From the IMG/VR virus record IMGVR_UViG_3300020462_000010, positions 1-44,766 of that record: a stretch of DNA of 44,766 nucleotides; one strand, 5' to 3'. Source of the stretch: a virus. Positions 161 to 40,700 of the stretch are shown here, one piece after another. Made by a program: the position numbers and the translations under genes. The notes under the pieces were generated by a model, which was given only the letters and a program-made list of their open reading frames with translations, searched no databases and had not been told where the DNA came from. Each line of letters starts with the position of its first letter. Position 1 is the stretch's first letter.

Positions 161-187
161 AAGAGGAGTTGCGACTCCTCTTTTTTA
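161..187 (+). terminator. Intrinsic terminator after the first (partial) gene
   Basis: A perfect 9-bp stem (161-169 with 174-182) with loop TGCG is followed by a T-run. It closes the preceding transcription unit. The stem-loop region also carries the -35-like element of the next promoter. Confidence 0.85.
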
Positions 188-196
188 TGCTATAAT
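169..196 (+). promoter_or_regulatory. Sigma70-type promoter embedded in the terminator
   Basis: TTGCGA (169-174) lies across the terminator loop. A 16-bp spacer containing the T-tract leads to TATAAT (191-196), which is preceded by TGC, an extended -10. Transcription would start about 202, a few bases before the ATG at 209. Confidence 0.65.
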
Positions 197-208
197 ATAG
201 ATTAAAAT

Positions 209-604
209 ATGACTAACTCTTGGTCCATGTTATATGATGAAATTTTAAAAATGGATGAAAACACTAATTTGAATACGCAACAAAGTCCTATTGATTTTAT
301 TCCAAATTCAGCATCAACTCTTTTTAAATATAATGAAGATGAGATTGTAAAAGAACTTCTTGAGTATATTAGAGGAACTTATAGGCAACATTATTCTGCT
401 GGTGACGACAAAATTCAGACATTGGATTTGATTGAAGCTTGTGGAGATGGTGAACCATTCTGTAGATCTAATATTCTTAAGTATGCATCACGATACGATA
501 AGAAAGGTACGGCACGTCGTGATATAATGAAGATTCTTCATTATGCCGTTCTTCTTATGCATTTCAACGACAGGAATGCAAAACGTGAAATCTACCCTCA
601 ATAA
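209..604 (+). CDS. DUF3310-type protein
   Basis: This 131-residue protein has a divergent N-terminus and a C-terminal half (about residues 50-125) with the DUF3310 pattern: HYSAGDDKIQTLDLIEA, then NILKYASRYDKKG and DIMKILHYAVLLM. DUF3310 proteins are common small phage proteins, sometimes described as nucleotide-kinase-associated; their reaction is not established. It follows its own promoter with almost no leader, so the start could also be ATG 227. It ends three bases before an in-frame ATG of the clamp gene. The family call is from pattern memory; the function is unknown. Confidence 0.75.
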   Translation: MTNSWSMLYDEILKMDENTNLNTQQSPIDFIPNSASTLFKYNEDEIVKELLEYIRGTYRQHYSAGDDKIQTLDLIEACGDGEPFCRSNILKYASRYDKKGTARRDIMKILHYAVLLMHFNDRNAKREIYPQ

Positions 605-627
605 TAATGAAACTTAAAGAACAAACT

Positions 628-1296
628 ATGAAACTGTCTGATAATGCACTTGCTATCCTTAAGAATTTTGCGGGTATCAATAACTCTATTCTTGTAAAGC
701 AAGGCAACAAACTTCGCACTATTTCCGTGGCAAAGAACATTCTTGCCGAAGCAGAAATCAAGGAAGAGTTTCCCCGTGACTTTGCAATCTATGATCTAAA
801 CCAATTCTTGAACGGTTTGGGTCTTCATCATGAACCTGACCTTGATTTTAATCAAGACAGTTACTTGAGTATTAAAGAAGGCAAACGTCGTGTGAAGTAT
901 TTCTTTGCTGACCCAAATGTAATCGTTGCTCCTCCAGAGAAGGAAGTTGTATTACCATCTCAAGATGTATGTTTCCAGTTGGATAGTGTAACACTTGATA
1001 AACTTGTAAAGGCAGCAGCAGTATATCAACTTCCTGATATGTCTGCTATTGGTGAGAATGGTGTTATTAAACTGGTTGTTCGTGATAAGAAGAATGACAC
1101 TTCTAACGAGTATGCCATTGTTGTTGGTGAGACCAGTGATGACTTTGAATTTAACTTTAAGGTAGAAAACATCAAGATTATTCCTGGTGCCTATGAGGTA
1201 GTAGTATCTTCTAAACTTTTGTCACAATTCACGAATACACAGCACAATCTCAAGTATTTTATTGCACTGGAACCTGACTCAATAGGATTTAGATGA
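628..1296 (+). CDS. 45: Sliding clamp, DNA polymerase accessory protein gp45
   Basis: This is the phage PCNA-like ring that tethers gp43 to DNA and, in T4, also activates late transcription with gp55 and gp33. The N-terminus MKLSDNALAILKNFA matches the T4 gp45 start (MKLS...LLKNFA), and FAIYDLNQFLNGL and the C-terminal YFIALEPDS pattern also fit. The length of 222 residues is close to T4 gp45 (228). I chose ATG 628; an upstream in-frame ATG at 607 would add seven residues without family support. The next gene overlaps its stop by four bases, and gp44 follows 0.7 kb downstream. Confidence 0.93.
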   Translation: MKLSDNALAILKNFAGINNSILVKQGNKLRTISVAKNILAEAEIKEEFPRDFAIYDLNQFLNGLGLHHEPDLDFNQDSYLSIKEGKRRVKYFFADPNVIVAPPEKEVVLPSQDVCFQLDSVTLDKLVKAAAVYQLPDMSAIGENGVIKLVVRDKKNDTSNEYAIVVGETSDDFEFNFKVENIKIIPGAYEVVVSSKLLSQFTNTQHNLKYFIALEPDSIGFR

Positions 1297-1505
1297 AAAC
1301 ACTAACCACAATGAGAATTGTAGGTAGTGTTATGGTAATTGCTGCTTATTTTGTTGTTCTTCATGTAAATCTGACTTTTGGTGTTGTTATGAATACAATT
1401 GCAGATACCATGTCAATTCCATATTTTATCAAAACGAAATCGTGGGATATTGTTTTGATGTTGGGATTTCTTTTGGCAATTAGTTTTAGTAAACTTTTAA
1501 CCTGA
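1293..1505 (+). CDS. Small two-helix membrane protein
   Basis: This 70-residue protein starts with ATG in an ATGA overlap with the gp45 stop, so the two are translationally coupled. Two hydrophobic stretches (about residues 10-32 and 50-67) would span the membrane with a short loop between. I do not recognise a family. It sits inside the clamp/clamp-loader operon, which says little about its role. Confidence 0.7.
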   Translation: MKTLTTMRIVGSVMVIAAYFVVLHVNLTFGVVMNTIADTMSIPYFIKTKSWDIVLMLGFLLAISFSKLLT

Positions 1506-1515
1506 ATGGGTGTGA

Positions 1516-1881
1516 ATGGAAGAAAAATATGGTTGGGATACTAAAGATGAGTTCCCTGATGAAAGCACTGAGTTTCCTTCTTCCCGAAGAGTAAAGACAC
1601 TTTATCTTTATGCATTGGAAAGTGGTGGATGTATTATGCACGATGGATACATTCAAATAGGTATTATGAAACATAGTGTTGAGAAACATATGGAACTAAA
1701 TCCTACTATTAATTGGATTGTGACCTATTGGTGTCCTGATATATTCACTAACAGATATAAGAGGGCAACATTTCAGAAAACTGAAAAGAAAAATGAAGGT
1801 AGTCCAAGAACAGATAATCAGGGACAGGGTGTAGATTTAGACATAAAACCGAAAGGTTGTGGTATACTAGAGGACAAATGA
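1516..1881 (+). CDS. Hypothetical protein, 121 residues
   Basis: The protein begins MEEKYGWDTKDEFPDES and has a mixed hydrophobic middle (about residues 25-75) and a low-complexity, charged C-terminal 45 residues. No motif is recognised. It starts 11 bases after the previous stop. Its last codons overlap a small downstream ORF at 1878 by four bases, the coupled layout seen all along this operon, which supports it being translated. Confidence 0.6.
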   Translation: MEEKYGWDTKDEFPDESTEFPSSRRVKTLYLYALESGGCIMHDGYIQIGIMKHSVEKHMELNPTINWIVTYWCPDIFTNRYKRATFQKTEKKNEGSPRTDNQGQGVDLDIKPKGCGILEDK

Positions 1882-1946
1882 ACTTTATTGGAGAAGATGA
1901 AAGCACTGAGAGTCAATGTGAAAACTCAAGTCAATGTCCTCATTAA
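1878..1946 (+). CDS. Possible 22-residue peptide
   Basis: ATG 1878 overlaps the upstream stop (ATGA) and opens a 22-residue frame rich in Glu, Ser, Asn and Cys. It lies almost wholly under the start of the 51-residue ORF at 1897 in another frame. The coupling overlap is the only support; it may be a short leader that helps ribosomes reach the next gene. Confidence 0.3.
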   Translation: MNFIGEDESTESQCENSSQCPH

Positions 1947-2052
1947 CGATGATGATGATTACTGGGCAATTAAACATAATGCGATGCAGCAAGTGCATGA
2001 TGATATTCACTGGCACTTAAAGGAAAAATTTATGATTGAGTATGATGAGTGA
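1897..2052 (+). CDS. Small acidic protein, 51 residues
   Basis: The frame begins MKALRVNVKTQVNVLINDDD and continues with HNAMQQVHDDIHWHLK, an amphipathic pattern. GGAG lies just upstream of the ATG. Its stop overlaps the start of gp44 (ATGATGAGTGA), so it fills the only gap in the operon before gp44. No family is recognised. Confidence 0.55.
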   Translation: MKALRVNVKTQVNVLINDDDDYWAIKHNAMQQVHDDIHWHLKEKFMIEYDE

Positions 2053-2986
2053 TTTTATCTGGGTTGAGAAGTATCGACCACAAACTATTGAGGAATGTAT
2101 TCTTCCTGAGAGTACAAAGAAGACCTTTCAATCTTTCCTAGATAAGGGGGAGATACCTAATATGTTACTTGCCGGTCCTCCAGGCATCGGTAAAACAACA
2201 GTAGCAAAGGCACTCTGTAAAGAACTTGGAGTAGATGTATATGTCATCAACGGATCCGATGAAGGACGATTCCTTGATACCGTCAGAAATAATGCGAAAA
2301 ACTTTGCTTCGACCGTATCACTTACGTCAGATTCTAAACACAAAGTCATTATCATTGACGAAGCTGACAACACATCCAACGATGTACAACTCCTATTACG
2401 GGCGTTTATTGAGGAGTTCGCTGGCAATTGCAGATTCATCTTCACCTGCAACTACAAAAACAAAATCCTCGAACCTCTCCACTCCCGATGTGCCGTCGTT
2501 GAGTTTGGAATCAAAGGAAAAGAACGACAGAGTATTGCAGTACAATTCTTCAAACGTATCCAACAAATCTTGGATACAGAAGGTGTTGAATATGATAACA
2601 AGGTCCTGGTAGAATTAATCAATAAGCACTTCCCTGATTGGAGACGTGTTCTTAATGAATGCCAAAGATATTCCGTAAGTGGGAAAATCGACACTGGTAT
2701 TCTTGCAACTTTTTCGGATGTAGCAGTCAATGAACTGGTTAAAAACCTTAAAGAGAAGAATTTTCCCGAAGTACGTAAATGGGTTGTCAATAACCTGGAC
2801 AATGATACTACTGTCCTGTTGCGTCGTATTTACGATGCTTGTTATGATTCCTTGGTTCCGAATAGTATTCCTGCTGCTGTGCTTGTCCTTGCTAAGTATC
2901 AGTATCAAATGGCATTTGTGGCGGACCAGGAAATAAACTTACTTGCCTGTCTTACTGAAATTATGGTGGAGTGTGAATTCAAGTGA
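2045..2986 (+). CDS. 44: Clamp-loader ATPase large subunit gp44
   Basis: This AAA+ subunit forms the loader with gp62 and opens and closes the gp45 ring on primed DNA. The 313 residues show the N-terminal WVEKYRP box, Walker A GPPGIGKT (about 44-51), Walker B VIIIDEAD (about 101-108), sensor-1 region FIFTCN (131-136) and the SRC motif HSRC (146-149). Length matches T4 gp44 (319). I chose ATG 2045, which gives MSDFIWVEKYRP; ATG 2042 and TTG 2036 are also in frame. Its last 20 bases are the first copy of a junction repeat seen three times in 340 bp. Confidence 0.95.
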   Translation: MSDFIWVEKYRPQTIEECILPESTKKTFQSFLDKGEIPNMLLAGPPGIGKTTVAKALCKELGVDVYVINGSDEGRFLDTVRNNAKNFASTVSLTSDSKHKVIIIDEADNTSNDVQLLLRAFIEEFAGNCRFIFTCNYKNKILEPLHSRCAVVEFGIKGKERQSIAVQFFKRIQQILDTEGVEYDNKVLVELINKHFPDWRRVLNECQRYSVSGKIDTGILATFSDVAVNELVKNLKEKNFPEVRKWVVNNLDNDTTVLLRRIYDACYDSLVPNSIPAAVLVLAKYQYQMAFVADQEINLLACLTEIMVECEFK

Positions 2987-4822: not shown

Positions 4823-5082
4823 TGGGACTACTAAAAATTGATAAAAGCAAATTGATAGAGGAGAAAGTTAAAACTACTCCTCAGAATGTTCAAGAGGCAA
4901 ATGAAGCATTGTTTCATGCTACAATGAACTTACCTACTGCCGCAAAACATTGTGGTATGACTCAGAAGGAAATGAAATTGACCTTCTGGGAATTTTTGAA
5001 ATATCATCCCTGTGATTATGAAATCTCTGAAATCTTTGAAAACACCTCTTCGATATCCAGGAGGGAAGTCGAAAGCAATTAA
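4822..5082 (+). CDS. Hypothetical protein with a helix-turn-helix-like segment
   Basis: ATG 4822 (MGLLKIDKSKL) overlaps the previous stop; a TTG at 4819 is also in frame. The middle, LPTAAKHCGMTQKEMKLTF, resembles a small helix-turn-helix, but this is only a visual impression. The last 65 bases overlap the start of the methylase gene in another frame, an unusually long overlap for this operon. Confidence 0.55.
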   Translation: MGLLKIDKSKLIEEKVKTTPQNVQEANEALFHATMNLPTAAKHCGMTQKEMKLTFWEFLKYHPCDYEISEIFENTSSISRREVESN

Positions 5083-5902
5083 GACTCTTTCTCAATGGTA
5101 TCCAAAAGTAATCACTGAGTATCGTGAACCATTCATCGGTGGTGGATCTATTGCGATTGATGTGACCAAGGCAAATCCAGACATTCCTGTTTGGATCAAT
5201 GATCTGTATGTGCCCCTTTACAACTTCTGGGTGCAATTGCGTGATCATGGACAAGACCTCTCTGAGAGTGTTAGAGAGCAAAAAGAGAAGATGCTTGAGA
5301 GTGGGACACAGGATGAGAAAGACCAGTTTGCCAAGAACTTGTTCAATCAATATGCCAATGAAATAGACACTTATGATGACTTTCAGAAAGCAGTTGCTTT
5401 CTTTATCATGAATAAGTGTAGTTATTCTGGTCTGACAGAGAACAGCACTTTTTCACGGACTGCTGCTAATTCTAACTTCTCTCTGGTTGGTGCAGACAAA
5501 CTTGCACAATTTTCTGAACTAATTAAGAACTGGAAGATTACTAATATTGATTACTCTGAGGTAATGAATGCTGAGGGATCTGATAATACTTTTGTGTTTC
5601 TTGATCCTCCTTATGATATCAAAGACTTTCTTTATGGTAAAGATCGTCAAATGCATAAGTCATTCGATCATGATAAGTTTGCTAATGATGTTTATAAGTG
5701 TCCTCACAAGTTCATGATCACTTATAATGTGAATGATAGATTGCTTGAGTTGTATAAAGATTATCATCTTGAATATTGGAAACTGCGTTACTCCATGGTT
5801 CATCGTGGAGATAAGAATACCCAAGACAATGTAAAGACAGAACTTTTAGTTACTAACTATTCTCTTACACCAAAAACTCCGATTGAAGAACAATGGAACT
5901 GA
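5018..5902 (+). CDS. dam: DNA adenine N6-methyltransferase, D12/Dam type
   Basis: This enzyme would transfer a methyl group from SAM to adenine N6, probably in GATC as for T4 Dam. Residues show LRYPGGKSK (about 11-19), the SAM-binding motif EPFIGGGS (37-44) and the catalytic DPPY (196-199), in the order of the D12 class. The 294 residues fit the family (T4 Dam 259, E. coli Dam 278). I chose ATG 5018; a GTG at 5012 is possible. No restriction nuclease neighbours it, so it is a solitary methylase inside the replication operon. The target site is inferred. Confidence 0.9.
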   Translation: MKSLKSLKTPLRYPGGKSKAIKTLSQWYPKVITEYREPFIGGGSIAIDVTKANPDIPVWINDLYVPLYNFWVQLRDHGQDLSESVREQKEKMLESGTQDEKDQFAKNLFNQYANEIDTYDDFQKAVAFFIMNKCSYSGLTENSTFSRTAANSNFSLVGADKLAQFSELIKNWKITNIDYSEVMNAEGSDNTFVFLDPPYDIKDFLYGKDRQMHKSFDHDKFANDVYKCPHKFMITYNVNDRLLELYKDYHLEYWKLRYSMVHRGDKNTQDNVKTELLVTNYSLTPKTPIEEQWN

Positions 5903-6273
5903 AAGACTGGCTTAATTCTATCAATCAAACTAAGAAGCATTTGATTGATGAAGATCCTTCACTCGAAAAAGAATATCCTCCTTATATTATCAATCGTTGT
6001 TTCTCTGGACATCTTGATACTTTGATGTTTGTCAATGAGATGAATAAGTATAATTTCCTTCCTAAAAGGTTACAATACGACTTCCTTATAAATATTGTGA
6101 GGAAAAAGAAGAGATTTTCTCCCTGGCTCCGACAAGATAAGATCAAAGATCTAGATTATGTCAAACGTTATTATGGTTATAGTAATGAAAAGGCAAAACA
6201 GGCTTTGAAAATTCTAACAAAAGAACAACTTAATTTTATTAAATCAAAATTTGATACTGGAGGGAAAGGATGA
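5893..6273 (+). CDS. 62: Clamp-loader small subunit gp62
   Basis: The single gp62 subunit combines with four gp44 subunits to make the loader. At 126 residues it is shorter than T4 gp62 (187). It starts MELKDWLNSINQTKKHL and keeps the conserved YPPYIINRCFSGHLDT segment (about 29-44) and SPWLRQDK. It overlaps the methylase gene by ten bases and regA by four. The order 44...62-regA is the T4 order and supports the call. Confidence 0.9.
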   Translation: MELKDWLNSINQTKKHLIDEDPSLEKEYPPYIINRCFSGHLDTLMFVNEMNKYNFLPKRLQYDFLINIVRKKKRFSPWLRQDKIKDLDYVKRYYGYSNEKAKQALKILTKEQLNFIKSKFDTGGKG

Positions 6274-6710
6274 GTGTTGTTAGAGAAGCTGAAGTGAGAT
6301 GGACACCAGAACAAATGGTGGAAGTGGTTCTAGGAGAACCAGATGATTTTCTAAAAGTTCGTGAGACTTTGACTCGTATCGGAGTTGCGTCTAGAAAAGA
6401 AAAGAAAATCTATCAATCCTGTCACATTCTACACAAGCAAGGAAGATATTACCTTGTGCATTTTAAAGAACTATTTGCCCTTGATGGTAAACATGCAAAT
6501 CTAACATTGAATGATGTTCAGAGACGTAATCGTATTGCACAACTACTTGCCGACTGGGGTTTGATTAGTATTGTAGATGCCGATAAAATTCAAGACATCG
6601 CACCACTCAATCAGATTAAGGTTCTTGCATTTAGAGATAAGCAAGACTGGATCCTTGAGACCAAATACAATATTGGTTCGAAGAAGAAAAGGACAGAGGA
6701 AACCGAATAA
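6270..6710 (+). CDS. regA: Translational repressor RegA
   Basis: RegA binds start regions of early mRNAs and blocks their translation. The 146 residues include the conserved RETLTRIGVASRKEKKIYQSCHIL region (about 31-54), the YYLVHFKELFALDG strand pair and RRNRIAQLLADWGL. It is a little longer than T4 RegA (122) because of a charged Lys/Arg tail. It is coupled to gp62 (ATGA) and ended by a terminator at 6717, so it closes the clamp-loader operon. Confidence 0.92.
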   Translation: MSVVREAEVRWTPEQMVEVVLGEPDDFLKVRETLTRIGVASRKEKKIYQSCHILHKQGRYYLVHFKELFALDGKHANLTLNDVQRRNRIAQLLADWGLISIVDADKIQDIAPLNQIKVLAFRDKQDWILETKYNIGSKKKRTEETE

Positions 6711-6716
6711 AAATCT

Positions 6717-6741
6717 ACGGGGTTCAACACTCCGTTTTTTT
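6717..6741 (+). terminator. Terminator after regA
   Basis: ACGGGG (6717-6722) pairs with CTCCGT (6730-6735) with one G-T pair and a seven-base loop, followed by a T-run. The loop TTCAACA doubles as a -35-like element for the next promoter. Confidence 0.75.
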
Positions 6742-6758
6742 ATGCTATAATATAAATA
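6723..6758 (+). promoter_or_regulatory. Overlapping early-type and late-type promoters of hsp20
   Basis: TTCAAC (6723-6728), a 17-bp spacer and TATAAT (6746-6751, with upstream TGC) form a sigma70-type promoter. Sharing one base, the exact T4 late octamer TATAAATA lies at 6751-6758. The gene could be transcribed both early and late from this spot. Confidence 0.65.
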
Positions 6759-6761
6759 ATG

Positions 6762-6782
6762 GTGGATGCCTTCGGGGTCCAC
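6762..6782 (+). promoter_or_regulatory. Leader hairpin with UUCG tetraloop upstream of hsp20
   Basis: GTGGA (6762-6766) pairs with TCCAC (6778-6782). The inner part closes a C(UUCG)G tetraloop (6770-6775) with one bulged G. This exceptionally stable loop type lies about 20 bases before the AAGGAG ribosome site and could act as an mRNA stabiliser or temperature-sensing leader. The function is inferred. Confidence 0.6.
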
Positions 6783-6815
6783 ACAATCAAATCTCGCTTT
6801 AAAAGGAGAAGCACA

Positions 6816-7241
6816 ATGATCAAGTTTAATGCTGCCAATTTGGATCAGCTGGTAGATAGCATAAATAAGAATAGCATCCATATGGATGAATATTTCGAAA
6901 GGTTGTTTAATCTCCACGAAACAACAAAGAATTATCCACCATTTAATCTAGTCACAGTCAGTAAAGTAGAATCAAGACTAGAAATTGCACTTGCAGGATT
7001 TAGAAAGGCAGAAGTAAATGTCTACACACAAGACGGAAAACTCTTTGTTGAAGGACAAAAAAAGGACACCGAAACAGATACAGAGTATGTCCACAGAGGA
7101 ATGGCTCAACGATCTTTCACCAGATCTTGGACATTGGCAGAGGACACGGAAGTTAGATCAGTTGAATTTGAGGATGGGTTGTTGAGTATTGTTATGGGAA
7201 GAATTGTGCCCGAACATCATCAAAAGAAGGTATGGTTTTGA
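6816..7241 (+). CDS. hsp20: Small heat-shock protein Hsp20
   Basis: This alpha-crystallin chaperone holds unfolding proteins; T4-like cyanophages nearly always carry one. The 141 residues contain the alpha-crystallin core (about 45-135): FNLVTVSKVESRLEIALAGF, then VNVYTQDGKLFVEGQKK, FTRSWTLAEDTEV and EFEDGLLSIVM. I chose ATG 6816 because AAGGAG is ten bases upstream; the frame is open further left but would cross the leader hairpin. It sits, as in other cyanophages, between regA and gp43. It has its own promoter and leader. Confidence 0.9.
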   Translation: MIKFNAANLDQLVDSINKNSIHMDEYFERLFNLHETTKNYPPFNLVTVSKVESRLEIALAGFRKAEVNVYTQDGKLFVEGQKKDTETDTEYVHRGMAQRSFTRSWTLAEDTEVRSVEFEDGLLSIVMGRIVPEHHQKKVWF

Positions 7242-7266
7242 TATCCTGACTAATTTTTGCTGCGGT

Positions 7267-7301
7267 TGATACAGAAGTGTATCGTAGTGATACAGTATAA
7301 T
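7267..7301 (+). promoter_or_regulatory. Operator-like TGATACA triplet before a TATAAT
   Basis: TGATACA (7267-7273), its near-inverse TGTATC (7278-7283) and TGATACA again (7288-7294) are spaced 10-11 bp, one helical turn, and end directly before TATAAT (7296-7301). No good -35 stands 17 bp upstream, which fits an activator- or repressor-controlled promoter. The regulator is unknown. Confidence 0.5.
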
Positions 7302-7333
7302 CTATATAATTATGTAATCTGATGGAGACTATT

Positions 7334-7417
7334 ATGAACTTCACCATGACTACCATACTTTTTGGTACAACAGCATCTCTTTTTAGTTGGGGAGTGTTGT
7401 ACCCTGTTCTGTCCTAA
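7334..7417 (+). CDS. Hydrophobic micropeptide, 27 residues
   Basis: MNFTMTTILFGTTASLFSWG and seven more residues form a single hydrophobic segment. GGAG lies ten bases upstream of the ATG. It is the first ORF after the TGATACA promoter. The size and hydrophobicity recall tiny membrane subunits, but I could not match it to any photosystem or cytochrome subunit I know. Confidence 0.4.
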   Translation: MNFTMTTILFGTTASLFSWGVLYPVLS

Positions 7418-7430
7418 TACTTCCTGAACC

Positions 7431-7505
7431 ATGGAAATTATAGCAATCATCGCAGCAATCTCAGCAACATCATTCGGAGCATATTGGATGACACCAAAAC
7501 AATGA
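7431..7505 (+). CDS. Hydrophobic micropeptide, 24 residues
   Basis: The frame encodes MEIIAIIAAISATSFGAYWM plus TPKQ, again one membrane-length hydrophobic run with a short polar tail. It follows the first micro-ORF by 13 bases and precedes a terminator, so both could form a tiny two-gene unit. No ribosome site is obvious. Function unknown. Confidence 0.35.
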   Translation: MEIIAIIAAISATSFGAYWMTPKQ

Positions 7506-7522
7506 TAACTGAATGAAATGGT

Positions 7523-7543
7523 GGGCTTGACGCCCCCTTTTTT
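7523..7543 (+). terminator. Terminator after the micro-ORFs
   Basis: GGGC (7523-7526) pairs with GCCC (7532-7535), and further G-C pairs extend past one mismatch; the loop is TTGAC and a T-run follows. The loop is also the -35 of the next promoter. Confidence 0.7.
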
Positions 7544-7555
7544 ATGCTTTATAAT
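7527..7555 (+). promoter_or_regulatory. Promoter embedded in terminator, before the 358-residue protein
   Basis: TTGACG (7527-7532) starts at the terminator loop. Exactly 17 bp later comes TATAAT (7550-7555). This is a near-consensus host-type promoter reading into the gene at 7609. Confidence 0.75.
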
Positions 7556-7608
7556 ATGGGAGTGAACAGCAGTAGTCTGAACACACTGACCTCCATGCCA
7601 TTAAGAGT

Positions 7609-8685
7609 ATGTACAAAAAGAAAAAAGTCCCTCAAGATCGAGAGTTTCCACTAGATCTCTTGGGAGTTGAAGGCACGGATGGACCTGAATATCCGTTATA
7701 TGAATTTAAGGGGTTTGGATCTCGCCCGACCAATGAGATCAAGGCAACCACTGCAAATTACCCACGAAAAAGTGAGTTGGTTCAGAGTAAGTTAGAGATG
7801 CTAATTGCATCTACTGCCAACTTCATGTGGATGGTATTTGGTTGGCCGCTCAGTATTTTTGTTGATTCTGCTGGAAATGAATTTCAATTTGACCATCGAC
7901 ACCTTCTTCGAGCATTAATTGAGAACAAATGGATTCATGCTCCAGTCGCATTGTATGAACGTAAATCAACTGGCAATGAAGTTCTTGATCAATTGTCAGA
8001 CAACAGTGCTATGTCTCTTATGGGACTTCGTGCTAATGCTACAGACAATAGTGAGAATGCTGGAACTAAAGATTTTCATATTCTCCGACGATTAATGGAA
8101 GATGATGGTATTCCCATCACAAAGAAAAACGTAGATATTCTTCTTGATGCTGCTGGTATAAATGCTCGATACCCAAAGGGTGGACATAAAAGCACAATTG
8201 GTGCTATTCGTAATGCTATTCTTGAGACTAAAGTAAAATCACTTCGTGTTTTTAATACTTCTAAGGAAGAAGTAAAAGCATGGATTGCAAATCAACCAAA
8301 CTTTGCAAAGAACAAAGAAGCTGCTGATGGTGTGCTTTGCTACCACAAGGTTCTTGATGAAGGATTTTATTATCGATATGCTAACGATATCCTCCGATGG
8401 ACTTGGAAAGCATTTGCCACAGGATCTAAGGTTCGTGTTTGTGCTTCCAGTTATGCAATCTGCGAACATCAGATTGAAGCAGAACGTGAAGAAATGGTTG
8501 ATACTATCAAAGACATTCTTGATAACACTATCAACTGGTACATTTCTTGGGTTGAAGAACGGTTTTCTAATGTTGGAATGAAGATTCACCTTCCAAAAGT
8601 TGAACTTGCAAAACTACCTTTGGAACTCTTTTGGATTCCTCAAATTGAAGGTGAGACTGAAGCAATTCGTGTTGATCTTAAGTAA
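7609..8685 (+). CDS. Unknown protein, 358 residues
   Basis: I do not recognise this family. The protein is soluble-looking, with a basic start (MYKKKKVPQDREFPLD), a segment around residues 85-105 reading FQFDHRHLLRALIENKWIHA that faintly recalls ParB-like DRRH-type folds, and an amphipathic C-terminal region. It has its own promoter and terminator and lies between hsp20 and gp43, a variable insertion spot in cyanophages. It is a single-gene unit with early-type control, so an early takeover function is possible but unproven. Confidence 0.75.
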   Translation: MYKKKKVPQDREFPLDLLGVEGTDGPEYPLYEFKGFGSRPTNEIKATTANYPRKSELVQSKLEMLIASTANFMWMVFGWPLSIFVDSAGNEFQFDHRHLLRALIENKWIHAPVALYERKSTGNEVLDQLSDNSAMSLMGLRANATDNSENAGTKDFHILRRLMEDDGIPITKKNVDILLDAAGINARYPKGGHKSTIGAIRNAILETKVKSLRVFNTSKEEVKAWIANQPNFAKNKEAADGVLCYHKVLDEGFYYRYANDILRWTWKAFATGSKVRVCASSYAICEHQIEAEREEMVDTIKDILDNTINWYISWVEERFSNVGMKIHLPKVELAKLPLELFWIPQIEGETEAIRVDLK

Positions 8686-8729
8686 ACAAGAATCTATCTA
8701 AATACAATTGAATATCGTCGTCGCAGACG

Positions 8730-8772
8730 GAGGGGGAACTGGCCAAATCCAGTTGCAACCCCTCTTTTTTTA
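8730..8772 (+). terminator. Two-tier terminator after the 358-residue protein gene
   Basis: An outer GAGGGG/CCCCTC stem (8730-8735 with 8759-8764) encloses an inner AACTGG/CCAGTT stem (8737-8742 with 8749-8754), and seven T follow. The 3' side contains the -35-like TTGCAA. Confidence 0.85.
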
Positions 8773-8781
8773 TGCTATAAT
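8753..8781 (+). promoter_or_regulatory. Promoter embedded in terminator, before the 8803 gene
   Basis: TTGCAA (8753-8758) in the terminator 3' arm is followed by a 17-bp spacer and TATAAT (8776-8781) with an upstream TGC. GGAGAGG then serves as ribosome site for ATG 8803. Confidence 0.7.
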
Positions 8782-8802: not shown

Positions 8803-9123
8803 ATGTCAATTAGGATTGCATTATTGAAATCAGGTGAATCAGTAATTGCCGATATTAAAATTAAAGAACTGATTTCTGATAAAAATAATTATGTATATGT
8901 GTTCAAGAATCCTTATATTGTAGATCTAGCATCTAATGAAGAGGTTCTTCTTTTGGAAGAAGGGGAAACACCATCAGAAGATAGGAATGTAGGAGTTAAT
9001 TTTACACCGTGGATATGTCTTACAGCAGATACAGAGATGGATGTAAGACCTGACTGGATAGTTACTATTGTAACTCCAGTAAAAGAAATCGAAAAACTAT
9101 ACGAGGAAATGATTAATGGATGA
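8803..9123 (+). CDS. Conserved-type small beta protein, copy 1
   Basis: This 106-residue protein begins MSIRIALLKSGESVIADIKI, an opening that resembles Sm/LSm-like beta-barrel proteins. It continues with YVFKNPYIVDL, NFTPWICLTAD and the closing WIVTIVTPVKEIEKLYEE. The next gene has the same order of elements and is a diverged paralogue. Similar proteins precede gp43 in marine T4-like phages as far as I recall. RNA or DNA binding is only an inference from the possible Sm fold. Confidence 0.65.
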   Translation: MSIRIALLKSGESVIADIKIKELISDKNNYVYVFKNPYIVDLASNEEVLLLEEGETPSEDRNVGVNFTPWICLTADTEMDVRPDWIVTIVTPVKEIEKLYEEMING

Positions 9124-27066: not shown

Positions 27067-27205
27067 AGGAAATTGTAAGTGTAACTGTATAAAAACTGAA
27101 GATGCTTTAGAGATGTATAGAGAAGCAGCAAAATCTGATGCTTTTCTATTTGGTGATTATGATGGGTATAAAGCATTTGAAGATTTAGATCAAGAGGACT
27201 CCTAG
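27029..27205 (+). CDS. Cysteine-rich small protein, 58 residues
   Basis: ATG 27029 has GGAGGA upstream and opens MLPKIRLQGSPCKGNCKCNC, with four Cys in nine residues, followed by an acidic helix-rich tail ending DLDQEDS. The start lies within the nrdB C-terminus. The position after nrdA/nrdB is where many phages carry a glutaredoxin, but the length and Cys pattern (CxxxCxCxC) do not fit one. Metal binding or a redox role is inferred. The stop codon sits in the loop of a terminator. Confidence 0.6.
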   Translation: MLPKIRLQGSPCKGNCKCNCIKTEDALEMYREAAKSDAFLFGDYDGYKAFEDLDQEDS

Positions 27206-27221
27206 GGGGGGTCCTTTTTTT
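27195..27221 (+). terminator. Terminator after the RNR operon, containing the stop codon
   Basis: AGGACTCC (27195-27202) pairs with GGGGGTCCT-type bases ending at 27215, with the TAG stop in the loop, followed by seven T. It ends the gp61-nrdA-nrdB unit. Confidence 0.8.
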
Positions 27222-27228
27222 ATAAATA
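27221..27228 (+). promoter_or_regulatory. Late promoter octamer abutting the terminator
   Basis: TATAAATA begins at the last T of the terminator tract, 37 bases before ATG 27258. It would restart late transcription immediately after the early/middle unit ends. Confidence 0.75.
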
Positions 27229-28361: not shown

Positions 28362-28384
28362 TATAAAACTCACATAATCTATCA

Positions 28385-28412
28385 AGGGGGTTGACAACAA
28401 CCCTCTTTTTTA
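28385..28412 (+). terminator. Terminator after the Ala/Lys-rich protein gene
   Basis: A 9-bp stem (28385-28393 with 28398-28406, one G-T pair) with loop ACAA is followed by a T-run to 28412. The stem top contains TTGACA. Confidence 0.85.
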
Positions 28413-28445
28413 TTAGACTAGGTTTGTCCCCGTTAAAGATAAATA
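28391..28445 (+). promoter_or_regulatory. Promoter in terminator plus late-like site
   Basis: TTGACA (28391-28396) in the hairpin stands 17 bp before TAGACT (28414-28419), a weak -10. A one-mismatch late octamer, GATAAATA, lies at 28438-28445, 23 bases before the next ATG. Confidence 0.5.
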
Positions 28446-28467
28446 ATAGCTCATTGAGTTCTATACA

Positions 28468-28917
28468 ATGAGCTATGAGAATTCTTGGATATACAATAAT
28501 GAACCTTTTGAGTCTGATGCTATTGGGAACCACTTTGGTTTTGTTTATTGTATTACCAATAAGTCCAACAAACGACAATACATTGGGAGAAAGTATTTTT
28601 GGTCGTTCAGAACACCAAAAGGAAAAAAGAGAAAAGTAAAACAAGAATCTGATTGGAAGAAGTATTATGGTTCTTGTCCTGAGTTGAAGGAAGATATAAA
28701 AAGATACGGCAAAGAGTTCTTCAGTAGAGTAATATTAAGTCTTCATGAGAAGAAGGGAGATTGTAACTTTGAGGAGACTAAGCAGTTGTTTCTAAATAAT
28801 GTGCTATCAGAGGCACTTGACAACGGAGCACCGGCATACTACAATAGCAACATTCTCGGCCGTTACATGCGGAAAGATTATGGAAACTTTGGAAAAGACC
28901 CTGCAGGTGACTCATGA
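28468..28917 (+). CDS. GIY-YIG family nuclease
   Basis: The 149-residue protein has the GIY-YIG hallmarks: GFVYCITN (24-31) stands for GIY, QYIGRKYF (37-44) for YIG with the following Arg, and YYGSCPELKEDIKRYG with FSRVIL for the next elements. These enzymes cleave DNA and occur as homing endonucleases or repair/recombination nucleases. A free-standing homing endonuclease is plausible, since it is a single gene between terminator and lysis-type genes. No DNA-binding tail is obvious. It overlaps the next gene by 38 bases. Confidence 0.8.
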   Translation: MSYENSWIYNNEPFESDAIGNHFGFVYCITNKSNKRQYIGRKYFWSFRTPKGKKRKVKQESDWKKYYGSCPELKEDIKRYGKEFFSRVILSLHEKKGDCNFEETKQLFLNNVLSEALDNGAPAYYNSNILGRYMRKDYGNFGKDPAGDS

Positions 28918-35661: not shown

Positions 35662-35663
35662 GT

Positions 35664-35737
35664 GGGCAAGTAGCTCAGATGGACAGAGCCACGCACTTCT
35701 AATGCGTTGGTCGGGGGTTCGAGTCCCTCCTTGCCTG
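35664..35737 (+). tRNA. tRNA-Arg (anticodon TCT)
   Basis: The cloverleaf has acceptor GGGCAAG/CTTGCCT with a terminal G-T pair, anticodon loop CTTCTAA and T-loop TTCGAGT. CCA is not encoded. It reads AGA, a codon common in AT-rich phage genes. Confidence 0.95.
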
Positions 35738-35739
35738 TC

Positions 35740-35761
35740 GTAGATGTATAAATATATCTAC
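35740..35761 (+). promoter_or_regulatory. Late promoter octamer inside a palindrome between tRNAs
   Basis: GTAGAT (35740-35745) and ATCTAC (35756-35761) flank TATAAATA (35747-35754). The octamer would allow late transcription of tRNA-Asn and the genes beyond, separate from tRNA-Arg. Confidence 0.55.
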
Positions 35762-35768
35762 TTTACAA

Positions 35769-35842
35769 TCCCCTGTAGCTCAATCAGGCAGAGCACGAAG
35801 CTGTTAACTTTGGGGTTACTGGTTCGATTCCAGTCGGGGGAG
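35769..35842 (+). tRNA. tRNA-Asn (anticodon GTT)
   Basis: Acceptor TCCCCTG pairs with CGGGGGA (one T-G pair). The anticodon loop is CTGTTAA and the T-loop TTCGATT. Length is 74 bases. Confidence 0.95.
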
Positions 35843-35844
35843 TT

Positions 35845-35920
35845 GCCAGTGTAGCTCAGTTGGTAGAGCAGGGTACTTGTAATACTCAGGTCGGGCGTTC
35901 AAATCGTCTCACTGGCTCCA
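35845..35920 (+). tRNA. tRNA-Thr (anticodon TGT) with encoded CCA
   Basis: Acceptor GCCAGTG pairs perfectly with CACTGGC. The anticodon loop is CTTGTAA and the T-loop TTCAAAT. CCA is encoded at 35918-35920, unlike the other tRNAs here, and the next tRNA begins at the following base. Confidence 0.95.
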
Positions 35921-35993
35921 GGGGTTTTAGCTCAGTTGGTAGAGCGCCTGCTTTGCAAGCAGGATGTCATCGGTTCGAGTCCGATATTCTCCA
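35921..35993 (+). tRNA. tRNA-Ala (anticodon TGC) with imperfect acceptor stem
   Basis: The anticodon arm CCTGC-TTTGCAA-GCAGG and T-loop TTCGAGT are clear. The acceptor GGGGTTT against ATTCTCC leaves two T-T mismatches and one G-T pair. It may be partly degraded, or the mismatches may be tolerated or edited. Confidence 0.9.
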
Positions 35994-35994
35994 C

Positions 35995-36023
35995 TTGACA
36001 AGATTGAATTCTTGTCATATAAT
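35995..36023 (+). promoter_or_regulatory. Perfect consensus promoter with internal palindrome
   Basis: TTGACA (35995-36000), 17 bp and TATAAT (36018-36023) match sigma70 consensus at every base. An 8-bp inverted repeat, TGACAAGA (35996-36003) and TCTTGTCA (36010-36017), fills the -35 and spacer, suggesting an operator. It drives tRNA-Gly and perhaps the outer-membrane gene. Confidence 0.85.
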
Positions 36024-36048
36024 ACTTCTTGTGTGAAGGAAGTGTGTC

Positions 36049-36064
36049 GGGAGAGTAATCTCCC
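36049..36064 (+). promoter_or_regulatory. Hairpin in the tRNA-Gly leader
   Basis: GGGAGA-GTAA-TCTCCC is a perfect 6-bp stem with a GNRA-type tetraloop, ending five bases before tRNA-Gly. It may guide 5' processing; no T-run follows, so it is not a terminator. Confidence 0.6.
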
Positions 36065-36069
36065 ACTAT

Positions 36070-36141
36070 GCGGGTGTAGTTCAGTGGTAGAACGTCAGCC
36101 TTCCAAGCTGAATGTCGTCGGTTCGAATCCGATCACCCGCT
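36070..36141 (+). tRNA. tRNA-Gly (anticodon TCC)
   Basis: Acceptor GCGGGTG pairs with CACCCGC. The anticodon loop is CTTCCAA and the T-loop TTCGAAT. It is the last of the five tRNAs and has its own promoter. Confidence 0.95.
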
Positions 36142-38193: not shown

Positions 38194-38203
38194 TATAAGT
38201 ATA

Positions 38204-38230
38204 GTGGGGGACAATAGTCCCCCTTTTTTT
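38204..38230 (+). terminator. Terminator after pstS
   Basis: GGGGGAC-AATA-GTCCCCC is a perfect 7-bp stem followed by seven T. The next ATG (38231) directly follows the T-run, so the downstream gene has no room for a leader unless read-through occurs. Confidence 0.9.
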
Positions 38231-38407
38231 ATGAAAAAGAAAATGAAAAAGTCGGAACAAAAAACCGCAGATTGTGATAACCTTTATGATATGATTGAGT
38301 TATTACATAGTCGTATTGAGGAAATAGAAAATGAACATACACAATTGATTCGTAAGATGGGAGAACTAAATAGTCGAGTAGATAACTTTTCTACAAATGA
38401 AAATTAA
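38231..38407 (+). CDS. Small coiled-coil protein, 58 residues
   Basis: I chose ATG 38231 (MKKKMKKSEQKTADCDNLYD); the open frame extends into pstS but that part crosses the terminator. A basic start leads into a helix with heptad pattern (MIELLHSRIEEIENEHTQLI). ATG 38246 is an alternative. Expression probably depends on partial read-through of the terminator. Function unknown. Confidence 0.6.
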   Translation: MKKKMKKSEQKTADCDNLYDMIELLHSRIEEIENEHTQLIRKMGELNSRVDNFSTNEN

Positions 38408-38570
38408 TCTTTGGTACTCTAAGAGTATGAGTCAATGGAGATGGACTCTCTGTGAAGAATTTAAAAATGGTGTTACTAAAGTAGAACAACATTCTGGACA
38501 ACGTGAGGAATTGCGAGATGCAATGAATGATGTTGCTAATACGGTAGAGTATATGTTAGATGATAAATAA
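38397..38570 (+). CDS. Small protein with Trp-rich start, 57 residues
   Basis: The frame begins MKINLWYSKSMSQWRWTLCE and continues as an acidic helix (EELRDAMNDVANTVEYMLDD). It overlaps the preceding gene by 11 bases. The pattern recalls a conserved small family of marine T4-like phages. Function unknown. Confidence 0.6.
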   Translation: MKINLWYSKSMSQWRWTLCEEFKNGVTKVEQHSGQREELRDAMNDVANTVEYMLDDK

Positions 38571-38602
38571 CTGAAAACTGAAGACGTATAAAGTATTATA
38601 CA

Positions 38603-38860
38603 ATGGAAAATATAAAGATTAGGTGTCGTTCCTGTGGAAAGGAATTGGAAGGACACCCGAGTAAGACAGTTTCTTGTGGTTGTCCGAATATGGCAACCAT
38701 TCGTGGTGATAAGATTTCGGCAGTTGATTTGTCGAATATTGTTATGTTAAACACCTATCGATCTAAAAATAAAAAGTCATTTCTTTCGCAAGAAGATATT
38801 TTGTGGCAGGAACAGAGAAAACAACGCAAAGTTCGTAAAATGAATTTTGAGGTTAGGTAA
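38603..38860 (+). CDS. Zinc-ribbon-like small protein, 85 residues
   Basis: Four Cys are spaced as CRSCGKEL and CGCPN (about residues 8, 11, 25 and 27), a compact knuckle-like zinc site at the N-terminus. A second half rich in Lys, Arg and Gln (QEQRKQRKVRKMNFE) could bind nucleic acid. No partner motif is recognised. Confidence 0.65.
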   Translation: MENIKIRCRSCGKELEGHPSKTVSCGCPNMATIRGDKISAVDLSNIVMLNTYRSKNKKSFLSQEDILWQEQRKQRKVRKMNFEVR

Positions 38861-38880
38861 TATTAGGAAATCAAAATAAG

Positions 38881-38908
38881 TTGACAAATGCAAATTAGTA
38901 ACTATTAT
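38881..38908 (+). promoter_or_regulatory. Sigma70-type promoter
   Basis: A perfect TTGACA (38881-38886) stands 16 bp before TATTAT (38903-38908). Transcription would start close to 38916. Confidence 0.6.
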
Positions 38909-38915
38909 AGCTAAT

Positions 38916-39098
38916 ATGTATTTCAATCAAAAAACCATGGACGAGCATACCTATAATAACTGGGTAAAAGTCAAAGAAACATTTGAAGAATCTGGAAATA
39001 CTGAAAACTTTTTCTATCAAAGAGCATGTGCTATAGTTGGTGGAGCACCAGATCCTATTGATAAAATTATAAAACAAGACAATGCCGCATCGGATTGA
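38916..39098 (+). CDS. Small protein, 60 residues (or 53 from the second ATG)
   Basis: The frame is open from ATG 38916, close to the predicted RNA start, so ATG 38937 (MDEHTYNNWVKVKETFEESG) is the likelier start unless the message is leaderless. The protein ends with CAIVGGAPDPIDKIIKQ. It overlaps the next gene by 17 bases. Function unknown. Confidence 0.6.
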   Translation: MYFNQKTMDEHTYNNWVKVKETFEESGNTENFFYQRACAIVGGAPDPIDKIIKQDNAASD

Positions 39099-39297
39099 TG
39101 AAATAAAATCAGAACAATATGTCACTCAAAAAGAGTGCCAGGAGATGATTGATGATGCTATTCGGAGACACAATAGAAACGCAAGTATTATCAGCATGTG
39201 TGTTGGGTGGGTTGTCTTATGTTTATTTGCTGAGGGCCTTCTCAGATTAATTGGTGTTATTCCACCACTATTACCATGGTTACAAATTAAATTGTAG
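39082..39297 (+). CDS. Single-span membrane protein, 71 residues
   Basis: A charged N-terminal helix (CQEMIDDAIRRHNRNAS) is followed by a membrane segment (IISMCVGWVVLCLFAEGLLR, about 36-55) and a second hydrophobic stretch with two prolines. No family is recognised. GGAG for the following gene lies just after its stop. Confidence 0.6.
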   Translation: MPHRIDEIKSEQYVTQKECQEMIDDAIRRHNRNASIISMCVGWVVLCLFAEGLLRLIGVIPPLLPWLQIKL

Positions 39298-39306
39298 GAG
39301 AATTTT

Positions 39307-39786
39307 ATGAAAGTTGGATTGATTGGATTGCATCCTATTTCGATAGATATGTCCCGTAACATGATTGAAAATGGAATTGAAGTTTGGGGGTATAGTAGTA
39401 ACTATGATCTTGCCTGTAAAGAATATGAAAACGGTTATATTAGTGGATGTGTAACCTCACTAGAGTATCTTGTTCAGTCAGTTAAATCTGATAGTCTTAG
39501 GTATACTAGTGCAGGGAAGGTTCCTGGTATCTTTCAAATTACACTTCCAGTATCACAGGTAGAAGATACATTTGATGAGTTACTACCTTTACTTGAAGAG
39601 GGTGATATTATTATTGATTACAGTAGTAATGACATAGAAAAATGTCTGGAACTGGAAAAGTATTGTGCTAAGTTAGGTATATCTTATATCTTTGTTGGTA
39701 TATTTGGATCAAAACATACTATTAATGTTTGTTCTGAAATTTTTAAACGTACCATGTACAAATCACCTTTCTGTATCGGAAATTAA
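39307..39786 (+). CDS. Truncated 6-phosphogluconate dehydrogenase-like protein
   Basis: The 159 residues resemble the NAD(P)-binding domain of Gnd: MKVGLIGLHPISIDMSRNMI, NGIEVWGYS, then VEDTFDELLPLLEEGDIIID and GISYIFVGIFG. Full Gnd enzymes are about 300-480 residues, and the catalytic C-terminal domain is absent. The dinucleotide loop reads GLHPIS where GLGxMG is expected, and IIIDYSSND replaces the usual DGGNS. NADP use is therefore doubtful. Cyanophages often carry gnd; this may be a decayed or repurposed copy. Confidence 0.65.
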   Translation: MKVGLIGLHPISIDMSRNMIENGIEVWGYSSNYDLACKEYENGYISGCVTSLEYLVQSVKSDSLRYTSAGKVPGIFQITLPVSQVEDTFDELLPLLEEGDIIIDYSSNDIEKCLELEKYCAKLGISYIFVGIFGSKHTINVCSEIFKRTMYKSPFCIGN

Positions 39787-39918
39787 ATGACTTTAGCTGA
39801 TGTCTTACTCTGGGGAACAATACCCTTTCTATGTGCCACCATTTATTTCGGGCACAGAAAAGGTGAAAATATCTATTACGAAAGTGACAAATATGACGGA
39901 AATGGAACAGCGCATTAA
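39787..39918 (+). CDS. Small membrane protein, 43 residues
   Basis: ATG 39787 overlaps the stop of the previous gene closely (TAAATG). The protein (MTLADVLLWGTIPFLCATIY, then FGHRKGENIYYES) has one N-terminal membrane helix and a polar tail. Its end overlaps the next gene by 26 bases. Function unknown. Confidence 0.5.
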   Translation: MTLADVLLWGTIPFLCATIYFGHRKGENIYYESDKYDGNGTAH

Positions 39919-40108
39919 GATGAGATATGCGTTTGCCATGTCTTCATTTGGTAGAATGTTTACCCCAAATAAAATCTCATGTGAGATGAGATTATTATGT
40001 GAAGAGTGGTCAAAAAACATTGATGAAATTCCACCCACTAAAGACTTATATCAAGTTGATCGTTATTTTCTAGAATTTTGGAAAACGAGGGAGATTACTT
40101 ATGAGTAA
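39893..40108 (+). CDS. Small helical protein, 71 residues
   Basis: I chose ATG 39893 (MTEMEQRIKMRYAFAMSSFG); the frame is open further upstream to ATG 39800, but that part covers the previous small gene. The protein includes NKISCEMRLLCEEWSKNIDE and LYQVDRYFLEFWKTRE, a compact helical pattern. Its end overlaps the next ATG by eight bases. Function unknown. Confidence 0.55.
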   Translation: MTEMEQRIKMRYAFAMSSFGRMFTPNKISCEMRLLCEEWSKNIDEIPPTKDLYQVDRYFLEFWKTREITYE

Positions 40109-40268
40109 CATAGCACTCAAAGCAGCACACTTTGCCTCTGCAACACTCAATAATCCGTGGGGTGTTGGTAGTTTAAGTTTCATATTGATCTTTGTTCCTA
40201 TCATAGGAATGTGGGCAGTTCACAAATACAACTGGGAGCATTGGGCACCATTTGACAGAGGGCACTAG
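40101..40268 (+). CDS. Small membrane protein, 55 residues
   Basis: MSNIALKAAHFASATLNNPW is followed by a membrane helix (SLSFILIFVPIIGMWAVHKY, about 24-43) and an aromatic, charged tail. A perfect promoter lies inside the last codons (40252-40280). I do not recognise a family; such proteins occur in this block of small cyanophage genes. Confidence 0.6.
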   Translation: MSNIALKAAHFASATLNNPWGVGSLSFILIFVPIIGMWAVHKYNWEHWAPFDRGH

Positions 40269-40280
40269 AGGTAGTATAAT
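40252..40280 (+). promoter_or_regulatory. Perfect consensus promoter inside the 3' end of a gene
   Basis: TTGACA (40252-40257), 17 bp and TATAAT (40275-40280) match consensus fully. RNA would start about 40287 and run through a non-coding stretch to the next promoter. Confidence 0.8.
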
Positions 40281-40286
40281 GTATAA

Positions 40287-40365
40287 GATAGGTAAGGAAA
40301 GAAAAAGGAGCATGGGAACCGACCGGACGTAATCTGGAAGGAGATACCGCACCTGCCTTGACAAC
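40287..40365 (+). ncRNA. Candidate small RNA or leader between two promoters
   Basis: The stretch follows a perfect promoter. It contains GGAG with an immediate ATG and only a six-codon frame (MGTDRT), a CCGGA/TCTGG hairpin (40323-40337) and a second GGAG. No gene is encoded. It could be a long leader of the gene at 40417 or a small RNA. Confidence 0.35.
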
Positions 40366-40394
40366 TTGACTACATAATCACAACACCGTATAAT
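40366..40394 (+). promoter_or_regulatory. Sigma70-type promoter of the 73-residue protein gene
   Basis: TTGACT (40366-40371), a 17-bp spacer and TATAAT (40389-40394) stand 23 bases before ATG 40417. Together with the promoter at 40252 the gene has tandem strong promoters. Confidence 0.75.
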
Positions 40395-40416
40395 ATACAG
40401 GTAATCAAAACGGACA

Positions 40417-40638
40417 ATGGCACTGACTGAAAAATTCAAAACCAAGGATTTAGATACCCTTCGTAATGCTGCAAAAGGTGAAATTTTCTTAGATGTAAAA
40501 AGTCCGAAATTATTTAAGAAGGTTCGTAAATATTATGAATCTAATGGAGTAATTTTTTCTGGTGATCCACTTGATGATTATGAAATCATGATGGACTGTT
40601 TGTATTCTGATTTAGAAATTTCTGTTGAGGTTGTTTGA
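40417..40638 (+). CDS. Small protein, 73 residues
   Basis: The frame (MALTEKFKTKDLDTLRNAAK, then GEIFLDVKSPKLFKKVRKYY and acidic DDYEIMMDCLYSD) looks like a small mixed alpha/beta fold. Two strong host-type promoters precede it and a terminator follows, so it is expressed as a single-gene, probably early, unit. Function unknown. Confidence 0.65.
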   Translation: MALTEKFKTKDLDTLRNAAKGEIFLDVKSPKLFKKVRKYYESNGVIFSGDPLDDYEIMMDCLYSDLEISVEVV

Positions 40639-40663
40639 TTTTATTCATAGCAAGACCCCCTAT

Positions 40664-40690
40664 AAGGAGAGTTGCATAAACTCTCCTTTT
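40664..40690 (+). terminator. Terminator before the sugar cluster
   Basis: AAGGAGAG (40664-40671) pairs perfectly with CTCTCCTT (40681-40688) with a nine-base loop, followed by T residues. The loop begins with TTGCAT, the -35 of the next promoter. Confidence 0.85.
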
Positions 40691-40700
40691 CTAGTATAAT
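40672..40700 (+). promoter_or_regulatory. Promoter embedded in terminator, driving the sugar cluster
   Basis: TTGCAT (40672-40677) in the hairpin loop, a 17-bp spacer and TATAAT (40695-40700) precede ATG 40724. Confidence 0.75.

Follow-up and report, generated by a model that had tools for sequence, protein, structure and literature searches.

Composite promoter-terminators have a precedent in the promoter early stem-loops (PeSLs) of T4-type phages, with which Arbiol et al. 2010 and Comeau et al. 2014 (Genome Biol Evol) are said to have dealt. Here we analyse IMGVR_UViG_3300020462_000010, a virus record whose 44,766 bases we call the window, and in it an element of roughly 40 bases of DNA that joins an intrinsic terminator to a sigma-70-type promoter at six gene boundaries. 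The window is from a T4-like cyanophage near Synechococcus phage S-SKS1, the closest annotated relative found (88% identity across 69% of bases 1-25,000). An excerpt of the PeSL literature (PMC4503421) presents these motifs as composite promoter-terminators of T4-like phages, tied to modular gene shuffling; for the ORFanage region of phage S-PM2, the same excerpt judges their density too low to account for gene acquisition. With T4-type PeSLs characterised in this way, the kind of element is already known. The composites of the window are, as read from their sequence, a nested variant of it.

Read directly from the sequence, all six sites sit between two genes of the same direction. They share one layout: a hairpin carrying a -35-like hexamer, a T-tract and then a -10, with a spacer of 16 or 17 bp.

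161-196, + strand: composite 1; hairpin 161-182, -35 TTGCGA 169-174, T-tract, -10 TATAAT 191-196.
6717-6751, + strand: composite 2; hairpin 6717-6735, -35-like TTCAAC 6723-6728, -10 6746-6751.
7520-7555, + strand: composite 3; hairpin 7520-7537, -35 TTGACG 7527-7532, -10 7550-7555.
8729-8781, + strand: composite 4; two-part hairpin 8729-8765, -35 TTGCAA 8753-8758, -10 8776-8781.
28384-28419, + strand: composite 5; hairpin 28384-28407, -35 TTGACA 28391-28396, -10 TAGACT 28414-28419.
40664-40700, + strand: composite 6; hairpin 40664-40688, -35 TTGCAT 40672-40677, -10 40695-40700.

In this order the hairpins fold at -12.1, -8.1, -9.7, -18.1, -14.0 and -14.2 kcal/mol (z -2.1 to -5.5). By sequence and folding they have the makings of intrinsic terminators, a GC-rich hairpin followed by a U-tract; a -35/-10 pair at the 16-18 bp of a sigma-70-type promoter is present at all six, weak at 6717 and 28385; five of the pairs come from the promoter scan, and that of 40664, which lies outside the scanned ranges, from direct reading. 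Composite 1 carries an extended -10, TGCTATAAT, and lies between a reading frame that ends at about 134 and the next open reading frame (ORF), a DUF3310 gene, from 209. Composite 2, between regA (stop at 6710) and hsp20, has a weak -35 (TTCAAC, or TCAACA at 16 bp) but again the extended TGCTATAAT. The stem of composite 3 (7523) contains a mismatch, and the site precedes a 358-aa ORFan at 7609. The hairpin of composite 4 has two parts, with the -35 at its 3' internal loop, and a DUF6561 gene follows at 8803. Composite 5, upstream of a SegE-like GIY-YIG gene, recurs in S-SKS1 with its -35 and -10 retained and a different stem; composite 6 is also found there.

An earlier note on this DNA had listed the six sites, and the hairpin, the T-tract and a -10 at the spacing it gave are found at each, the -10 at 28385 being weak (TAGACT, a 4/6 match). 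It had placed every -35 in the loop or the 3' arm, which does not hold for composites 5 and 6 (28385 and 40664), where the hexamer starts in the 5' arm and continues into the loop. Three copies do share TTTTTATGCTATAAT, at 182, 6737 and 8767, and with spacers of 16 or 17 bp the T-tract can indeed be read as promoter spacer.

We scanned for such sites with a strict nested rule: a hairpin of -8.5 or below, a -10 matching in at least 5/6 positions, and a -35 within the hairpin. The window yields 3 sites, against 0 in 103 and 1 in 17 of 120 dinucleotide shuffles; a relaxed rule yields 5, a number equalled by 1/120 shuffles. The strict scanner overlooks 6717, 7523 and 28385, three of the six sites, so that the window alone gives modest evidence and related genomes carry the weight. 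Since half of the window's sites are skipped at these thresholds, scanner counts are lower bounds, though some spurious matches are included. Ten cyanophage sequences were compared, and their nested matches number 3 in the window, 10 in S-SKS1 (two of them irregular), 4 in S-PM2, 0 in Syn9, 1 in S-RIM2, 3 in Syn1, 7 in P-SSM2, 3 in S-SM2, 3 in S-CAM1 and 2 in part of Bellamy. Together they hold 36 nested sites versus 3.3 in shuffles, and 28 tandem ones versus 17 (three shuffles per genome). The shuffle comparison proposed in the earlier note thus comes out in favour of the pairing, and its view that a single segment bears both an end and a start signal finds support in the sequence and in these counts. 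Recurrence in unrelated gene contexts, also claimed there, is supported as well.

The geometry is regular as well. Past the hairpins of 515 strict cyanophage terminators, -10-like hexamers peak at 8-15 nt, with 54 and 36 per 4-nt bin versus 11-23 in every other bin. A TTG at the place of the -35 (start -17 to -11) occurs in 33/77 terminators with a -10 and in 77/438 without (p = 3e-6). In 30 of the 36 nested matches, the -35 starts 10-15 nt ahead of the point where the hairpin ends. When IMG/VR was scanned for the 15-mer TTTTTATGCTATAAT, at least 120 stretches matched; 94 of the 116 distinct testable matches among those listed have a hairpin of -6 or below directly upstream. The same holds for 37/116 controls with TTTTTATG without CTATAAT, for 77 of 400 other T runs tested and for 84 of 400 tested TATAAT hexamers without a T-run. 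DNA similarity to eight cyanomyovirus genomes was found for 80/120 of the listed 15-mer loci. A trade-off of -35 strength against an extended -10 was considered and rejected: the -35 scores of 15 sites with TG overlap those of 21 without. Pure chance is rejected by the shuffle counts and by orthology. The composite pattern is real and better than chance.

Orthology was followed most closely at 8730. The best 80 of 158 IMG/VR loci with DUF6561 homologs, together with the window and S-SKS1, gave 52 distinct upstream regions, scored for hairpin, T-tract and -10, the -35 not being required. All three parts are kept in 50/52. Of the two exceptions, L174 ends at a contig edge, and L138 has a -35 and a -10 with a hairpin too weak for the rule. 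In all 50 rows having a -10, its end lies 20-22 nt before the DUF6561 start codon. In several rows a simple hairpin, its loop containing the TTG, has taken the place of the original one at unchanged spacing.

That the elements are terminators only, the -10-like hexamers past the T-tract being unused as promoters, is in our view very unlikely. In its favour, several -35 hexamers are weak; against it, TATAAT, often TG-extended, co-occurs with TTG at the right spacing, terminators without a -10 have fewer TTGs at the -35 place, and the -10 at 8730 keeps its distance from the start codon. It is also improbable, if slightly less so, that terminator and promoter are mere neighbours in short AT-rich gaps, their overlap due to chance or compaction and the nested form unselected. 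The intergenic gaps are indeed short, and adjacency is common, as RB49 and T4 are mostly tandem; yet shuffled sequences give about one tenth as many nested sites, the offsets and the position of the TTG are fixed, and the 50 of 52 homologous regions keep hairpin, T-tract and -10 even where the hairpin has been replaced.

A two-part hairpin, with a conserved inner and a variable outer stem, is found in 43/52 regions. The TTG of the -35 stands at the junction of the 3' inner stem and the internal loop in 42/43; the exception, L177, has TTAACA. With duplicates removed, these 43 rows leave 28 distinct pairs of arms, in which the outer 5' arm takes 14 different 8-mers. Contiguous pairing reaches 6 or more in every one of the 28, with a mean of 7.5. 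When arms are swapped between rows and the offset is re-optimised, the mean is 5.5 pairs, and 49.5% of 666 combinations reach 6. A MAFFT alignment misplaced the 3' outer arm at this site, and pairs were counted by an anchored script. Judged from these sequences, stem pairing is retained above expectation. The inverted repeat might instead be a DNA operator for a dimeric repressor or activator over the -35, with no terminator: the dyad overlaps the -35, a frequent place for operators in general. A protein site would conserve its sequence, however, and here the stem varies in sequence while pairing persists, some rows have the entire hairpin replaced, and T-tracts follow hairpins that make stable RNA folds. 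We therefore judge the operator reading highly improbable.

Several composites also coincide with changes in gene content. The genes around them in the window are:

start 209: DUF3310 gene, after composite 1.
6270-6710: regA, before composite 2.
start 6759: hsp20, after composite 2.
7609-8685: ORFan of 358 aa, after composite 3.
start 8803: DUF6561 gene, after composite 4.
start 28468: SegE-like GIY-YIG gene, after composite 5.
start 40724: sugar epimerase gene, after composite 6.
7238-8717, + strand: stretch without S-SKS1 match between hsp20 and composite 4, holding composite 3 and the 358-aa ORFan.

Window positions 139-206, with composite 1, match S-SKS1 82654-82588 (91% over 68 bp), where the cassette stands after regA; it is also found after regA in Syn1. 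At the spot orthologous to composite 1, S-SKS1 has a plain TTGACG-17-TATAAT promoter and no visible terminator. Behind regA the window instead carries composite 2, whose S-SKS1 counterpart stands one gene further on, and two BLAST matches to S-SKS1 (window 5039-6759 and 6700-7237) overlap inside composite 2. The gene between the two S-SKS1 cassettes has no counterpart found in the window and, in the sets searched, occurs only in S-SKS1. Conversely, the stretch 7238-8717 has no BLAST match (E <= 1e-8) in S-SKS1 1-200,000, and its ORFan was found, in the sets searched, only in the window and one identical contig.

Composites were then counted in two gaps between genes, again by hairpin, T-tract and -10 with no -35 required, and an insert was defined as an ORF of at least 60 aa; gap length alone (a 250 nt cut) misread extra hairpins as insertions. 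Among the 29 regA-hsp20 gaps with an inserted ORF, 1 has three composites, 10 have two and 12 have one, while 22 of the 35 without insert have one. Two or more composites thus occur in 11/29 gaps with an insert versus 0/35 without (one-sided hypergeometric about 5e-5, a guide only, as the rows are related). Of the 65 hsp20-DUF6561 gaps, only 6 hold an inserted ORF: 3 of these have two composites, 2 have one and 1 has none. The 59 others have one composite in 51 and two in 8, and most of those 8 come from closely related phages that carry an additional hairpin behind hsp20. In large gaps of this kind, the insert lies upstream of composite 4 in L133, the window's twin, and downstream in L099 and L138.

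Our preferred reading, which we consider quite probable, is that the composites are nested PeSL-type boundary cassettes that would terminate one unit, initiate the next and serve as recombination sites for gene modules. Its basis at the level of sequence consists of the geometry, the enrichment, one conserved site, kept pairing, extra cassettes in one gap and one displaced cassette. Once transcribed into RNA, the hairpin and U-tract would bring transcription of the preceding unit to a stop. At the DNA level, the same segment would act as an overlapping host sigma-70-type promoter, with the -35 in the hairpin loop, a bulge or the adjoining arm, the T-tract as 16-17 bp spacer and the -10, often extended, directly after. 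Initiation would be early and through the host RNA polymerase. With both signals in one short segment, the upstream unit would be insulated and the next one started; because the cassettes are recurrent and alike, recombination at them could gain, lose or move gene modules, and recombination within a cassette would be the cause of the rearrangements.

Several results weigh against this reading. In the strict scan Syn9 lacks any nested site and S-RIM2 has a single one, and a few of the 36 nested matches, with long irregular hairpins, are probably spurious. The fair swap control gives a modest contrast only (7.5 vs 5.5 pairs), and since all stems are G-rich facing C-rich, composition alone accounts for much of the kept pairing. 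Another swap control, in which arms were preselected to pair (6.9 vs 1.36), is biased toward true pairs and was not used. Composites are missing from 13/35 regA-hsp20 gaps without an insert and from 6/29 with one, and the hsp20-DUF6561 gap lends a module role little support. Ends of similarity fall within the 100 nt before a composite -10 at a rate of 30.5%, yet plain terminators reach 22% and ORF starts 16%. As plain terminators show this clustering too, and as the rows in gap and breakpoint counts are related phages and not independent, breakpoints at composites are suggestive only. On balance the sequences give moderate support to the composites as putative boundaries at which phages gain, lose or relocate gene modules.

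Other promoter and hairpin features were noted along the way. A related composite lies within the window:

27192-27228, + strand: terminator hairpin directly followed by a late-promoter-like TATAAATA at 27221-27228.

S-SKS1 has this composite as well, its stem altered. Of the 515 cyanophage terminators, 18 carry the late-promoter-like motif NATAAATA within -2 to +21 nt of where the hairpin ends, 19 times in all, and 246 terminators of T4, RB49 and KVP40 have it there 9 times; about 0.5 and 0.2, respectively, are expected per 8-nt bin. Going by this excess, terminators bear late promoters as well. In composite 2, which runs TATAATATAAATA, the early -10 and a late-like -10 overlap.

Nine cyanophages hold 111 boxes [CG]TGTCACA; in 24 matches a TATAAT-like hexamer follows the box at an offset of 36-39 nt, versus about 0.35 per offset elsewhere. 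At offsets 35-38, a terminator-like hairpin lies between box and -10 in 5/19 cases. None of the 12 such boxes in T4, RB49 and KVP40 stands at offsets of 36-39 nt, and in the window no GTCACA is found at those offsets from a TATAAT-like hexamer. The box may mark an activator-dependent promoter class of cyanophages; TGTCACA appears inside a sigma-70 promoter sequence in an excerpt of PMC5587285. A box like AAACYGAATAA stands ahead of the hairpins at 161, 6717 and 7523, and TGAATAA precedes the -10 by 39-42 nt in 7 of the listed 15-mer matches, where 0.9 would be expected for the 50 nt covered.

The SegE-like gene has its start codon within an 11-bp perfect palindrome at 28446-28476, with GATAAATA ahead of the palindrome (region 28435-28480), and S-SKS1 has a similar arrangement. 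In T4, a start can be hidden in early transcripts and exposed in late ones, a scheme that the palindrome resembles by analogy. Right after composite 2, at 6759-6785, stands a small hairpin, GTGGATGCCTTCGGGGTCCAC, whose loop is TTCG; S-SKS1 has it too, and hsp20 may truly begin downstream of this hairpin. A cluster of five tRNA genes (Arg, Asn, Thr, Ala, Gly) lies at 35663-36141, with a consensus TTGACA-17-TATAAT promoter at 35995; the promoter and terminator scans of window ranges list no terminator hairpin in this cluster.

How do the composites compare with known systems? The earlier note overlooked both the known PeSLs of T4-type phages and the apparent module-boundary character of the sites. 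Like PeSLs, the composites combine, by their sequence, a stem-loop terminator and a sigma-70-like promoter in one short intergenic cassette, recur at many boundaries of one genome (six in the window, 10 strict nested matches in S-SKS1), and bear marks of gene insertion, loss or exchange (the displaced cassette, the overlapping matches and the extra regA-hsp20 composites). They do not share the tandem layout, with the promoter after the stem-loop, that we measured in RB49. This layout is our measurement and not the published PeSL definition, so its absence marks a variant and does not exclude membership. RB49 is presumably a PeSL-type phage, and we take its elements found here to be the published PeSLs. 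In 11 pairs of RB49 (1-50 kb and 120-164 kb), the -35 starts 8-35 nt past the hairpin in 8, and the other 3 are overlapping, weaker matches. Its whole genome has 17 tandem sites (shuffles 2.33) and 2 nested (shuffles 0), T4 has 7 tandem (3.33) and 1 nested (0.33), and KVP40 1-240 kb has 8 tandem (2.33) and 5 nested-like (0.33). The five KVP40 hairpins (L321, L323, L325, L326) take forms such as GGGTTGC...GCAGCCC with weak -10s, and may be a composite type of its own. In RB49 the promoter thus mostly follows the terminator, whereas cyanophages have the -35 within the hairpin and the T-tract as spacer.

A search of the literature by titles and the starts of abstracts, limited in coverage and implying no absence from print, found no description of a -35 nested in a terminator. 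Single-molecule work, in excerpts of PMC6978380 and PMC6978322, has RNA polymerase often staying on DNA after intrinsic termination and able to restart at nearby promoters, and the latter also suggests that a sense promoter close to a terminator could couple genes; both excerpts concern other templates and bacteria, not these cassettes. A nested cassette would set the restart promoter at zero distance, which makes the recycling idea testable. A polymerase releasing RNA in the T-tract might thus sit on the spacer of the next promoter and couple the units without re-recruitment, or upstream transcription might occlude the promoter, with an independent origin of the form in cyanophages and Lactococcus phages; we regard this relay as rather unlikely. 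The composites offer a natural set of fused terminator-promoters, many sequences in one layout, as a test bed for polymerase recycling. The nested geometry, as defined here, is usable for scanning, and gives a route from the sequence of a phage genome to the likely borders of its transcription units and its likely points of gene exchange. The analysis also reveals PeSL-like boundary elements in marine cyanophages, despite the judgement of sparseness for S-PM2 in the excerpt of PMC4503421.

Beyond the T4-type phages, the nested form is also found in Lactococcus phage WRP3, with 10 nested sites (shuffles 1.0) and 10 tandem (0.67). Like the cyanophages, it has TTGACA in the hairpin loop, a T-tract spacer and TATAAT, as in AGAGGACTTGACAAGTCCTCTTTTTTATGGTATAAT; unlike them, it is an unrelated phage of a Gram-positive host and also uses tandem elements. 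The shared nested form would then be convergence. Haloarchaeal virus HGTV-1 has PeSL-like motifs according to an excerpt of PMC3950731, a TATA-box-like region and an inverted repeat before many genes, for which a role in transcription control and shuffling is suggested. It differs as an archaeal virus, and is likened to the cyanophages by the described parts, not by geometry. Taken by counts, the excess is mainly nested in cyanophages, tandem in RB49 and of both kinds in WRP3.

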